Below are positions 6,659 to 13,282 of a stretch of 64,000 nt of DNA, one piece after another. How positions within the stretch are numbered: the stretch's first letter is position 1; each line of letters begins with the position of its first letter. The notes beneath the pieces are model-generated. The model worked only from the letters and a program-made list of their open reading frames with translations, was not told the origin of the DNA and searched no databases. Both the position numbers and the translations under genes were made by a program. The stretch comes from Affinundibacterium macrobrachii (GTDB taxonomy: Bacteria; Pseudomonadota; Gammaproteobacteria; Burkholderiales; Burkholderiaceae_D): assembly GCF_014652415.1 (NCBI RefSeq), contig NZ_BMYT01000002.1:186001-250000 (forward strand). Direction: 5' to 3'.

Positions 6659-8128
6659 TCAGCGTTCTCGCTTGTATACGTTGTACCAAGTATTACTTGG
6701 TTGATTTTCGAAAACGTGGGTCTTAATTTTATCCACCGTTGCGTCCGGCACGTCGTCCGGCTGAAAGTGGCCGGAGCTATTGGTGACAATGATGTCATAC
6801 TTGGTCACTGTTCTTCCCCATTTTTGACGCTCACCTAAATTGTTAACGTGGATCGTTCCAGCGGTTGTCACATCAGGATCGCCGCCAACTAGAGCAGGAT
6901 GCGGTAACTTCTCACCGTTACGATTCGCTCGTTTAATCTCATCATTGTGGTGTACATACATAAGTTCCGAGCCACTTCCAGCGAGATTTGGAATCTCGGT
7001 GCCATTCTCCATCCGGTAATGCGCCATTCGTCTATAAGTAATTTCTCGATTATTTGTAACGGCTGTGGTCAAGCGCGCTAATTTTGAATTATAGCTACCG
7101 CCGCCAGTTGCAATCGCGTTGTACGATGGTCGCCATGCGCTAAAAATATTGTTATATTCGGCATGCAACAAGTCCGCAGCGACTGATTCAGGTCGTGTTT
7201 GTTTGCGTTGAATTAAGACAGCGGTATCAGATTTCGCTTGTAAAGGTGTAGCGCTTACCTTATCACTTTGACCTAGTTGCATTGCTTTCGCACCCATCAC
7301 ATCTGCCTCGTTTTCCAGCCCTACATCGTCGTTCACCGGCACCCCGGGCTTTAATTGCATAGTTGGCTTGACGCGTGACTGCGCCTGTTGCACGACATGC
7401 CAAGCTTCATGCGGTAGATGCTGCTCTTGACCCGATGCGACATGAATCTCATTACCCTGCGCGAACGCATGCGCGTTGAGTTGAGCAGGTCGATCTGAGT
7501 TGTAATGCACTTGGACATGATCCATATTCATGCCAGAAAGTGCTTCGATACCTGCTTTTAGTTGAGTAGGCAAACCGGAATTGTTTGTTAAAGATGCTGA
7601 GGATTTCTTTTGTAATGCTGTATTTATTAGTGATCTTTCCTGAACTAGTTCCTCATCTTCCGCTCTTTGAACGGTAACCAATTTCCCTTGAACGGGCTCC
7701 TCTTCTTCAACTTTTTGTACCGTCGCAAACTTTCCTTGTACTAATTCTTCATCTTCGGCTCTTTGTGCAATTTCAAATTTAGCTTGCACAGGTTCTTCAT
7801 CTTCGACCTTTTGCAAAGTCGCAAACTTTCCTTGTACTAGCTCTTCATCTTCGGCTCTTTGGATAGCTTCAAATTTGCCTTGTACCGGCTCTTCGTCTTC
7901 GACTCGCTGAAGTGTTATATTGCTTGCCCCATTTAAGGCGTCTTTGCGTTCTTGAAGTTGCGCTGTCTGGACGCTAGCATTCATCATATCTTGTCGATTC
8001 GCTTGGCGCGAGACAACTTGGCGCTGGTCTAGCATGGAACTAGTAGCCAATGCTGATCTGCGCGCTTGAACTGTTTGGCTCACGCTATCTGCGTGATGAT
8101 TTGATGTGGCTGCAATTCTTGTTTTCAT
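6659..8128 (-). CDS. DUF4157 (eCIS core domain) protein with repeat region and unknown C-terminal domain
   Basis: 489 residues; the ATG at 8128 follows an AAGGA site. Residues 1-70 are Gln/Ser-rich. Residues 73-168 are six 16-residue acidic repeats. Residues ~186-286 are the DUF4157 domain, with [14 protein letters not shown] and the zincin-like HEAWH at 240-244. After QRK at ~308 a ~180-residue C-terminal domain begins; it includes [13 protein letters not shown] and the motif [17 protein letters not shown]4157 proteins are associated with extracellular contractile injection systems, and many are cargo effectors. That suggests a toxin-like C-terminus, but I do not recognise its fold. A paralogue lies at 10487. 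No eCIS structural genes are in the window. Confidence 0.85.
7625..7912 (-). repeat. Six tandem 48-bp repeats coding 16-residue acidic units
   Basis: The units read [L/I/A/V]-Q-[R/K]-[V/A]-E-[D/E]-E-E-[P/L]-V-Q-[G/A]-K-[F/L]-x-x, with the last unit diverging at its end. They alternate: units 1, 3 and 5 have VE..EEPVQ and units 2, 4 and 6 have AEDEELVQ. This indicates growth by duplication of a 96-bp double unit. Confidence 0.85.
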
Positions 8129-10486: not shown

Positions 10487-12649
10487 TCACAGTTTCAGGT
10501 TGGGGTCCAATTCCAAACTGAGCATTTTATTCTTTTCTTTGACTGGTAAGTTTGTCGCTCTTACCACGTCAGCAAAATCGGCTTTAGTTTTACTGCCCGA
10601 ACTAGTCATATGATTTTGAACCGCTGCGACAAACGATGCGCCTTTCGCTGGATTTGATAAGAATGCTCTGGTTGCAAGCGGCCCCCCACCGTTACCCCGA
10701 AGTATCAAATAGTCTTTTGATTCCTCTTTAGCGGCTTTATCGACAGGACCGTCAGATTTATTTCTGCTTCTAACAGGTCCGCCACTACCTTTTTTTCGCT
10801 CCACATTCATAAGGTCGTCGAACATCCGCCCGATACGAATCGACACCGGTAATAAGTTCACTTTGGTATTGGTTGTCGGTAACACAGACGGTGTCATTCC
10901 TTTTGGTGTCGTGGTGGCGGTGGGCTGATCACGGAGATCTTGCGGTTCTGGTTGGAACATAAAGCCACTAAATGATGGCTGCTGTCCCATATGAATCATG
11001 GTTCCACCGAATGTCGTCGCAGTTTCAAAATACCCTGCAAGAAATCCTGAATTTGTGCGTTTAATTCCTGGCCGTGTATGTTGAGCACTACTATTTGGTT
11101 CAATTACAAGGTCTTGAGCGGTTTGCTTCGATGACTGCAAATTATGAAAATGTGCGCCCTTATTAAAGGCGAGCAATGGAATATTCTTTGTACCACCTTT
11201 ATCAACCGTTCCAGTCCAAAATGTTGGCACCCAACGTCTAAAGGTAACACTAGTGTTCTTTAGATCAGTAGCCGTTTGATTTCCTTTCGTGGGGAGCATA
11301 TTCAAGATCGCACGATTGATGACACCCGCATCAACAAGTTGCTCACCTGTGCGGACATAATCATCACCCTGATATTCAACCTTGACGGAATAATCGAACT
11401 TATGACCATGTGACATCAAATGCTCTGGCACACTTTCCCAACCGCGCATCAAGCCCTGATTGAAATTTTTGTTCTCTTGCGGAGCGAGATTGCCATGTAC
11501 ATCGGCTGTTTGCCCTTCCATCAAAGTATGCTCGACAAGATGGCCCCCATCATAGGTATTACCTAGATTCTGTCGATTGAAAATGGCGCGCTCCATCACT
11601 CCAAAATGACCGTATGGACCGATCACTGAATTGTCTCGATTTTTTGAGTCCGCCTTAGAACTCGATTTTGGGTCGATTGAGGCGACCACCTCTCCCGCTC
11701 GAGAAAACGAGCCAGAATAAGTGGAGTCATTTGGCAAAATTTTCTGCAAGCTATGAAAGGTGTAGCTCTCGCTCAAGCCTGCACTTTTGAAAAATCCCTG
11801 AAATGCGGCGTGGAGAGAGGCTAGCGGTGTTGCCGCGTTTAGCTCGCGAGGTGAGTTAGACTTAAACTTCGATTTACGCTGCATCACCGACTCAGTTACT
11901 ACCGTATTCTTCCAAGAATCTAAAGCCGACGAGCTTTTTGCTTGCGTCAGAACCCCAGCGCTCTTTTTCCTTTGCACTGAGCCAAGCCCTAAGGCTTTTG
12001 CCCCCATCACATCCGCCTCGGTTTCCAAACCCGCATCATCATTCACTGGTGCACCAGCCTTCATCTGCATCGTAGGCTTAACGCGTCCCTGCGCCTGCTG
12101 TACCACATGCCAAGCCTCGTGCGGCAAATGCTGCTCTTGTCCAGGTGCGACATGAATCTCACTACCTTGTGCATAAGCATGCGCATTCAATTGGGCTGGT
12201 TGTGCAGAGTTATAGTGCACCTTCACATGATCCATGCTCATGCCTGATAAAGATTCAATACCCGATTTCAAATTATCAGGAAGACCTGTGTTATTGGGCT
12301 GTGGGGATGTGGTTTCTACCTCGCGGCGCTGCGCCATCAAATCCTGCGTCTGCGCTTGAATTGCCTCTTCATCTTCCATCTTTTGCAGTACGGGCACATC
12401 GGTCATAGCGCTCATAGTTCTCAATTGCGTGCTACGTATACTATTTTGCGCCAGTTGATCAGACAGTTTAAGCTGTCGGGTTTGCGAACTATTGTTAACG
12501 ATATCTTGTAGCCTACGCTGGCTAATCGCTTGTGATCGCTGATCAACAAACACAGGTGGCGCATCGTAAGCCGATGCTTGTTCAACTCGGGCGTGTGCAG
12601 GTTGTGTTGCCTCGGAATGTGCATGCTGCATAGGTACGGCTGAACTCAT
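10487..12649 (-). CDS. DUF4157 (eCIS core domain) protein with nuclease-like C-terminal domain
   Basis: 720 residues. The N-terminal 120 residues are Gln-rich and include one copy of the acidic unit (VLQKMEDEEAIQ) that is repeated six times in the paralogue. The DUF4157 domain spans ~122-222 with HEAWH at 177-181 and is nearly identical to that of the 6659 gene. The C-terminal ~450 residues are unrelated to the paralogue. Residues 366-405 read YDGGHLVEH, then GNLAPQENKNFNQG, then GWE. This order (GGH, N-x-x-P-Q-x4-N, W-E) matches the DRGH/NxxPQ/N/WE pattern of beta-beta-alpha-metal DNA/RNA non-specific endonucleases. I infer an eCIS-associated nuclease effector. Its function is unproven and no immunity gene is identified. 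Confidence 0.82.
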   Translation of the reverse strand: MSSAVPMQHAHSEATQPAHARVEQASAYDAPPVFVDQRSQAISQRRLQDIVNNSSQTRQLKLSDQLAQNSIRSTQLRTMSAMTDVPVLQKMEDEEAIQAQTQDLMAQRREVETTSPQPNNTGLPDNLKSGIESLSGMSMDHVKVHYNSAQPAQLNAHAYAQGSEIHVAPGQEQHLPHEAWHVVQQAQGRVKPTMQMKAGAPVNDDAGLETEADVMGAKALGLGSVQRKKSAGVLTQAKSSSALDSWKNTVVTESVMQRKSKFKSNSPRELNAATPLASLHAAFQGFFKSAGLSESYTFHSLQKILPNDSTYSGSFSRAGEVVASIDPKSSSKADSKNRDNSVIGPYGHFGVMERAIFNRQNLGNTYDGGHLVEHTLMEGQTADVHGNLAPQENKNFNQGLMRGWESVPEHLMSHGHKFDYSVKVEYQGDDYVRTGEQLVDAGVINRAILNMLPTKGNQTATDLKNTSVTFRRWVPTFWTGTVDKGGTKNIPLLAFNKGAHFHNLQSSKQTAQDLVIEPNSSAQHTRPGIKRTNSGFLAGYFETATTFGGTMIHMGQQPSFSGFMFQPEPQDLRDQPTATTTPKGMTPSVLPTTNTKVNLLPVSIRIGRMFDDLMNVERKKGSGGPVRSRNKSDGPVDKAAKEESKDYLILRGNGGGPLATRAFLSNPAKGASFVAAVQNHMTSSGSKTKADFADVVRATNLPVKEKNKMLSLELDPNLKL

Positions 12650-12865
12650 ACTTGAACTCGCTCTCTATCTGCGCGCGACAGTTATAAAGTCGTGCAAAAT
12701 GAAAAATAAGCAATTACTATTCTATTGTTTTTACTAATTTAATATCAAGTATGATAAATGATTTTTACCATAACTTTCTCTTTCACTGCAATCCGAGTTA
12801 GATGCTTACTATATGTTCCACACATAAACCAAGTTCGTAAAGAACAACACTCACATAAAAAGCGC

Positions 12866-13282
12866 ATGACCCATGTGAAAATACCTTCATATTCTTTGTA
12901 CCGCATGAACTTTATTTATACCGCAATCGTAATCGTACTTTGTGTTTGGGCAATCTCTATTTCACTTAACAGGATCGCTGATTCAATTTCTCAAGATACC
13001 TATCGAGCACAGGCGTTAAAGCAGTTTATGGAATATCGTACACATTCTTCGACACTTGAATTCATTCTTATTGGCTCAGAAGCAGAGATCATCAAATCGA
13101 GCGAAGATATTGTTAACAATGAAGGCTGGATTATGTCGTACTCTCTCACATGCTATGCCCGAAACGCTCATGGCGAATATTTTATGTTTGTCTCAAATTA
13201 TGAAGATAAACCATTCTGCAAACACATAAGTCACGCAAATGCTAAGTTAATTTTAGAGCACAAATATCGAGAGCCAATTTGA
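12866..13282 (+). CDS. Hypothetical single-pass membrane protein
   Basis: About 138 residues from an ATG at 12866; another ATG at 12905 is equally possible because neither has a strong Shine-Dalgarno. One transmembrane segment (FIYTAIVIVLCVWAISISL) near the N-terminus is followed by ~100 soluble residues. No family was recognised. It sits upstream of, and divergent from, the second DUF4157 gene, so a link (for example immunity) is possible, but nothing in the sequence proves it. Base composition is A/T-rich compared with neighbours. Confidence 0.45.
   Translation: MTHVKIPSYSLYRMNFIYTAIVIVLCVWAISISLNRIADSISQDTYRAQALKQFMEYRTHSSTLEFILIGSEAEIIKSSEDIVNNEGWIMSYSLTCYARNAHGEYFMFVSNYEDKPFCKHISHANAKLILEHKYREPI

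Follow-up and report, generated by a model that had tools for sequence, protein, structure and literature searches.

The gene at 10487..12649 of a 64,000-nucleotide stretch of the Affinundibacterium macrobrachii genome (contig NZ_BMYT01000002.1, positions 186,001 to 250,000; hereafter, the window) quite probably encodes a toxin that the cell's own extracellular contractile injection system (eCIS) carries as cargo, and the C-terminal domain of the product is predicted to be a metal-dependent, non-specific His-Me finger endonuclease of the EndA/NucA type. Computation shows the order of the domains, the family and its conserved residues, the predicted fold, purifying selection and the presence of an eCIS in the genome, whereas activity, substrate, delivery and target are inferred. 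The open reading frame (ORF) is intact and starts with ATG on the minus strand; as a first-pass annotation of the bare DNA had proposed, its 720-residue product carries a DUF4157 domain (PF13699, over the Pfam cut-off) upstream of the C-terminal domain. The layout of the protein is as follows.

10487..12649, minus strand: predicted eCIS-type effector, 720 amino acids, with leader, DUF4157 and DNA/RNA non-specific (NS) endonuclease domain (ORF and Pfam)
12305..12649, minus strand: N-terminal leader, residues 1-115 (boundary of our choosing)
12086..12283, minus strand: DUF4157/eCIS_core, residues 123-188 (PF13699, 35.7 bits against a cut-off of 22, E 9.7e-9)
12107..12121, minus strand: HEAWH (HExxH) motif of DUF4157, residues 177-181 (read from the sequence)
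11888..11989, minus strand: linker, residues 221-254, a probable module junction (ortholog comparison)
10868..11887, minus strand: predicted NS-endonuclease core with large insertions, residues 255-594 (model m231618772e8e covers 255-591)
11540..11551, minus strand: DGGH, residues 367-370 (alignment), His370 being the predicted general base
11477..11494, minus strand: GNLAPQ, residues 386-391 (alignment)
11435..11464, minus strand: FNQGLMRGWE, residues 396-405, with N397 the predicted metal ligand and E405 the predicted catalytic Glu
10490..10867, minus strand: C-terminal basic linker and helical module, residues 595-720, without a Pfam match

No match to the 720-residue protein was found in NCBIfam or PHROGs. 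Two weak hits were set aside: PDC-S01 (E 0.033), the sole row for the protein in PADLOC, and Pfam DUF6352 (E 0.032), which fell under its cut-off.

Assignment of the C-terminal domain

Residues 358-432 score 35.0 bits (E 1.9e-8) with the Pfam profile Endonuclea_NS_2 (PF13930), whose cut-off is 27, and the isolated nuclease domain scores 35.5 bits; because this match is over the cut-off, the motifs within it exceed what chance would produce. The first-pass annotation had listed these motifs as GGH, GN-x-x-PQ-x4-N and GWE, with GGH standing in for the DRGH of related enzymes. All three words are present, but the spacing to the conserved asparagine is PQ-x5-N, leading to N397, and the first motif reads D367-G368-G369-H370, in which the Asp of DRGH is retained and the Arg alone is replaced, by Gly.

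Conservation was assessed among the 47 proteins, the window's own included, that the 451 C-terminal residues retrieved from a collection of 5.8 billion (the others to E 4e-37); 41 of them span 84% or more of the query. In an alignment of the window fragment with 45 homologs (A2, 46 rows; the window's own protein, P0001, and P0005 left out), D367, G368, G369 and H370 are each identical in 45/45 rows with a letter at that position, N387 in 46/46 and E405 in 44/44. N397 is Asn in 45/46 rows, as against 15/46 for N395. The gaps and the single exception trace to three apparently truncated or shifted sequences (P0045, P0046 and P0047). Two further alignments comprised 46 of the 47 homologs (A1, P0005 left out) and the window fragment with 42 homologs (A6; P0001, P0002, P0005, P0046 and P0047 left out). 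The catalytic His, metal-binding Asn and catalytic Glu conserved in PF13930-type enzymes are thus found here as H370, N397 and E405, an equivalence to EndA that rests on motif order and secondary structure and not on superposed atoms. DRGH, the hallmark of the narrower EndA/Serratia-type group, is replaced by DGGH in every row with a letter; since the PF13930 profile is nevertheless passed, we place the protein in the wider PF13930 family and not in the DRGH group.

The predicted fold is that of a His-Me finger (beta-beta-alpha) nuclease of the EndA/NucA type, and not an unrelated one, with His370 modelled as closing the first strand of the beta-beta-alpha unit. Profile, predicted fold and conservation hence lend good support to the beta-beta-alpha-metal nuclease proposed in the first-pass annotation. 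Simple Nei-Gojobori counts against the Undibacterium baiyunense ortholog (L006) gave 1 non-synonymous and 31 synonymous differences in the core (residues 255-594), a ratio of non-synonymous to synonymous rates (dN/dS) of ~0.009, compared with 0.065 for the helical module, 0.081 for residues 116-220 with DUF4157 and 0.308 for the leader. The core is under purifying selection of extreme strength.

Several observations weigh against a nuclease. Besides the absent Arg of DRGH, when solved structures were searched by sequence, neither the protein nor a whole-family profile nor a 110-column core profile found a nuclease, the top rows being unrelated and at chance level. Foldseek superpositions were poor (best E 7e-4, TM 0.25/0.33; root-mean-square deviations of 9-16 A among the nuclease matches it listed), because only ~150 of the 337 core residues are common. 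PF13930 itself is weak or missed in some members, 15 of 46 having no match at E 0.001. In a search of six genomes, the copy from Streptomyces gelaticus reached 22.1 bits and stayed below the cut-off, while both Minicystis copies and the L012 copy had no match at E 0.001. The Pfam model, in other words, covers this nuclease family incompletely. On those three lines of evidence we nonetheless regard the nuclease prediction as well supported, and as right as far as computation goes.

Domain content varies across the family. Precomputed Pfam annotation placed PF13699 in 25/47 proteins and PF13930 in 22/47, and a scan of 46 members at E 0.001 found PF13930 in 31, PF13699 in 28 and PF01223 in 14; among eight members scanned singly (window domain included) at E up to 1, PF13930 matched all eight and PF01223 three. 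HExxH precedes the nuclease motif in 27/47 members, three of the 47 being truncated or shifted. Named carriers are Undibacterium, Streptomyces, Minicystis, Sorangium, Acidobacteria, Trebonia (a metagenome-assembled genome) and the cyanobacterium Nodosilinea, most other members being nameless. A scan of genomes of 84,980 species confirmed 7 loci from 66 pattern matches, a lower bound as the scan demands exact conserved words. A whole-genome search of the window's bacterial family, which scored four candidates per genome and could miss copies, matched the nuclease domain along its length in 2/294 genomes; in the other 49 matching genomes the match stops at model position 217 of 624, within the DUF4157 part. 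Among 199 Streptomyces genomes (up to eight candidates scored per genome), the domain was found solely in the already known carrier S. gelaticus.

The injection system and its link to the effector

The same genome encodes an eCIS at ~508-530 kb of contig C2, ~0.31 Mb from the effector gene at 196-199 kb. One part of it (L014) comprises Pvc16_N, tube (Phage_T4_gp19), CIS_tube, spike (Phage_base_V), PAAR, gp25 and baseplate J genes as well as a sheath gene that is over the cut-off for Phage_sheath_1C and just under it for PF04984 (28.4 bits); another (L017) holds a contractile injection system (CIS) tape measure and an AAA ATPase. The effector has the arrangement by which membership among eCIS-associated toxins is recognized, DUF4157/eCIS_core N-terminal to a toxin-like domain. 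With this domain and an eCIS in one genome, the eCIS association suggested in the first-pass annotation is supported, and we consider it probable that the protein is an eCIS effector. We note that a second tail-sheath-like gene (L013:9517-11178, contig C1 ~651 kb) appears solitary, a by-eye check of 20 kb showing no other tail gene.

Pvc16_N (PF14065), which its name leads us to take as an eCIS-specific marker, was present in 7/7 domain-bearing genomes searched, the window's own included; the two Undibacterium species are not independent. Its background is 50/294 in the bacterial family, 9/26 in the genus (own genome included) and 0/14 in named control genomes. Direct linkage was seen solely in Minicystis rosea (L010), where 2.7 kb separate the effector from Pvc16_N and 4.0 kb separate it from a sheath gene.

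Other data count against delivery by the eCIS. The effector gene lies outside the eCIS operon, and none of the three eCIS_core matches in the genome, two of which are in the window, is beside it. Proximity is typical though not defining: in 88% of known eCIS-associated cases, the gene is reported to be no more than about ten genes away from the operon (PMC11297309). In 6/7 of the fetched loci, no Pvc16_N match occurs within 10 kb on either side. Co-occurrence in Streptomyces is weak evidence, and we give it no weight because Pvc16_N is found in 128/199 genomes of that genus, of which only the one known carrier has the domain.

Known effectors and modular assembly

The pairing of DUF4157 with a nuclease of this kind is in print for Tme (BN159_7576), a CIS effector of Streptomyces davawensis whose EndA-like nuclease has DRGH and needs His2051; its C-terminal part, Tme-C, is described as degrading double-stranded DNA, single-stranded DNA and RNA in a Mg2+-dependent manner, and Tme as co-eluting with spike and tube-initiator proteins (PMC11126660). 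The window protein resembles Tme in its DUF4157 domain, its predicted C-terminal EndA-like non-specific endonuclease with catalytic His and Glu, and its CIS link. Compared by description, it differs in having 720 residues, DGGH and a 465-residue conserved C-terminal domain, whereas Tme reaches at least residue 2247, includes tape-measure-like and membrane regions, has DRGH and was tested as a nuclease piece of 218 residues (2030-2247). In place of such a long tape-measure/transmembrane middle region, ~34 residues (221-254) separate the modules of the window protein. Among the titles and abstract openings listed from the literature on DUF4157, contractile injection and nuclease effectors, such a domain is described solely for Tme, and nothing was found there on Undibacterium with contractile injection or on eCIS, nuclease and orphan effector together, subscription journals being thinly covered.

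The protein is like PF13930 members and the EndA, NucA, Sda1 and EsaD structures in its over-cut-off profile match, its predicted fold and the His-Asn-Asn-Glu order of its motifs. Unlike those structures, it has an extra C-terminal helical module and lacks the Arg of DRGH, and ~190 of its 337 core residues are unaligned to the best solved structure. As the core falls inside an existing Pfam family, a public database already gives the U. baiyunense ortholog the name 'DNA/RNA non-specific endonuclease' and Tme is published, the 'new effector nuclease family' of the first-pass annotation was too strong; the protein is better described as a distinct, larger subfamily or variant with a DGGH signature that is not categorically new.

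eCIS-associated DUF4157 toxins reported elsewhere (PMC8213781, PMC11297309) likewise have DUF4157 at the N terminus and a toxin domain at the C terminus; unlike most cases described there, the window gene is remote from the eCIS operon. The accessible text of these reports describes other nucleases (of the restriction-endonuclease type, a DNase-DUF4157 fusion and of the Holliday-junction type) and does not name the domain found here. Danov 2024 lists 1130 predicted DUF4157 toxins, of which 983 have no other annotated domain, as well as 69 predicted toxins with a nuclease or RNase annotation (PMC11297309). Pne1, from the metamorphosis-associated contractile structures (MACs) of Pseudoalteromonas luteoviolacea, is also an eCIS-delivered nuclease, a likeness drawn from the description in citing papers and not from sequence.

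The linker at residues 221-254 is only 17.6% identical between the window protein and its U. baiyunense ortholog, between flanks that are 96.2 and 99.7% identical. Such divergence between near-identical flanks suggests a junction of two modules, likely a recombination junction. The leader is fast evolving (68.7% identity to the ortholog) and partly common to further DUF4157 proteins within the genus. A DUF4157 protein of another Undibacterium (L052) shares, over its residues 1-229, 64% identity with residues 1-220 of the window protein, the C-termini being unrelated, which argues that these toxins are assembled from modules. The genome encoding the latter protein (L052:1859-3484, G160) has no Pvc16_N match. 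A second such gene lies in the window itself:

6659..8128, minus strand: second DUF4157 protein, 489 amino acids, with the same type of leader and DUF4157 and an unrelated C-terminal domain

Its leader has repeated EDEE-VQ units, its C-terminal domain of ~200 residues gave no notable Pfam or NCBIfam match, and a 90% identical ortholog adjoins the nuclease effector in U. baiyunense. The third DUF4157 protein of the genome (L015:9171-10910, contig C3 ~435 kb) shows weak C-terminal similarity to WHH (21.7 bits) and Colicin-DNase (20.4 bits), whose cut-offs are 25.1 and 25, and the strain may therefore hold a second nuclease effector, of the HNH type.

Mechanism, immunity and alternatives

In the mechanism we propose, the leader and DUF4157 would direct the protein to the spike or tube of the eCIS and, once the sheath has contracted, the C-terminal domain would regain its fold inside the target. 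There, one Mg2+ or similar ion would be bound by N397, with which a long helix begins, His370 would activate water, E405, on the same helix as N397, would support catalysis and N387 would help position the site. By analogy with its family, the injected nuclease would cut DNA and/or RNA of the target without sequence preference, candidate targets being prey, a eukaryote or the producer itself.

An immunity gene was sought by comparing neighbours across the window and seven loci (ORFs of at least 50 amino acids within 10 kb on each side, overlapping ORFs retained, blastp E 1e-5; the syntenic pairs window/L006 and L011/L012 left out of the listing). None was found. Apart from effector genes, other DUF4157 genes and antisense frames, the neighbours shared were of common families alone: SDR and LysR proteins (identified for the window copies) and a pair, ABC-type and GntR-like by our reading of the sequences. 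Among the seven domain-bearing genomes, NuiA was present in one (Minicystis) and YezG-like genes in none, and the window's genome had neither. M. rosea (L008, L010) carries the nuclease domain twice, Pvc16_N at six places and four genes for NuiA-type inhibitors. One candidate partner adjoins the effector:

12758-13282, plus strand: small divergent gene upstream of the effector, with a putative N-terminal membrane helix (our reading)

A 141-residue piece of its product matches in 8/43 Undibacterium genomes. In four of the eight (the window, U. baiyunense L006, L051 and L053, two of these being orthologous loci), the homolog lies within ~1.4 kb of a DUF4157 gene, that of L051 and of L053 having an unrelated C-terminal domain; in L052, it lies ~8 kb away, and around those of L054, L055 and L056 the HExxHVxQQ text pattern, a crude test, found no ORF in 10-14 kb. 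Because its homologs are near DUF4157 genes with unrelated C-termini, far from one or without one matched, the gene is not dedicated to the nuclease and was rejected as an immunity partner.

Many tested eCIS toxins are reported to have no putative immunity gene (Geller 2021, PMC8213781). We raise, as a speculation that we think rather unlikely, that this is an immunity-free eCIS nuclease subfamily spread over several phyla, in which added parts (the core insertions, the C-terminal helical module or the DUF4157/leader region) would silence the nuclease until it is fired through the injection tube, and unlinked toxin genes would spread between genomes with compatible eCIS.

Alternatively, the nuclease could act in the producer or its kin, in lysis, extracellular DNA release or development, and not as a weapon. 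This has been proposed for Tme, which is reported to work in the development of its own producer (PMC11126660); the presence of relatives in Streptomyces and the fruitless search for an immunity gene are consistent with such a role. The rarity of the domain in the family and Streptomyces genomes is unlike what a core developmental enzyme would show. Undibacterium is not known for such development. We judge this possibility a serious one, if somewhat improbable.

The effector might also leave the cell by a route other than the eCIS, DUF4157 being merely a frequent companion of secreted toxins. Besides the distance of the gene from the eCIS, this would fit the 18/46 relatives without an eCIS_core match at E 0.001, the 20/47 without HExxH ahead of the motif, the Undibacterium genome (G160) with a DUF4157 protein and no Pvc16_N match, and the reported occurrence of DUF4157 in some type VI secretion system effectors (PMC11297309). 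The excess of Pvc16_N in domain-bearing genomes over its background and the M. rosea copy beside eCIS genes argue the other way and make a separate route distinctly unlikely.

That the NS fold is catalytically silent and serves binding alone is highly improbable, given the near-invariance of the other catalytic positions and the extreme constraint on the core. Autotaxin, which carries a nuclease-like domain, offers a parallel for such a silent, binding role. Equally hard to credit is an active metallopeptidase in DUF4157 with the C-terminus as carrier or substrate: HEAWH is present, but the nuclease residues are nearly invariant in a family of which 20/47 members are without HExxH, and growth inhibition by the DUF4157 effector Cgo1 reportedly does not depend on the metalloprotease motifs that it carries (PMC11297309).

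Read as a nuclease toxin of the cell's own eCIS, the protein would add a well-supported, if predicted, nuclease to the cargoes of these systems, whose toxin domains mostly lack assignment. The leader and DUF4157 that it shares with a protein of unrelated C-terminus in another Undibacterium illustrate modular toxin assembly, and the family offers a clean case for asking how producers survive such a nuclease when the search for an immunity gene turned up none.
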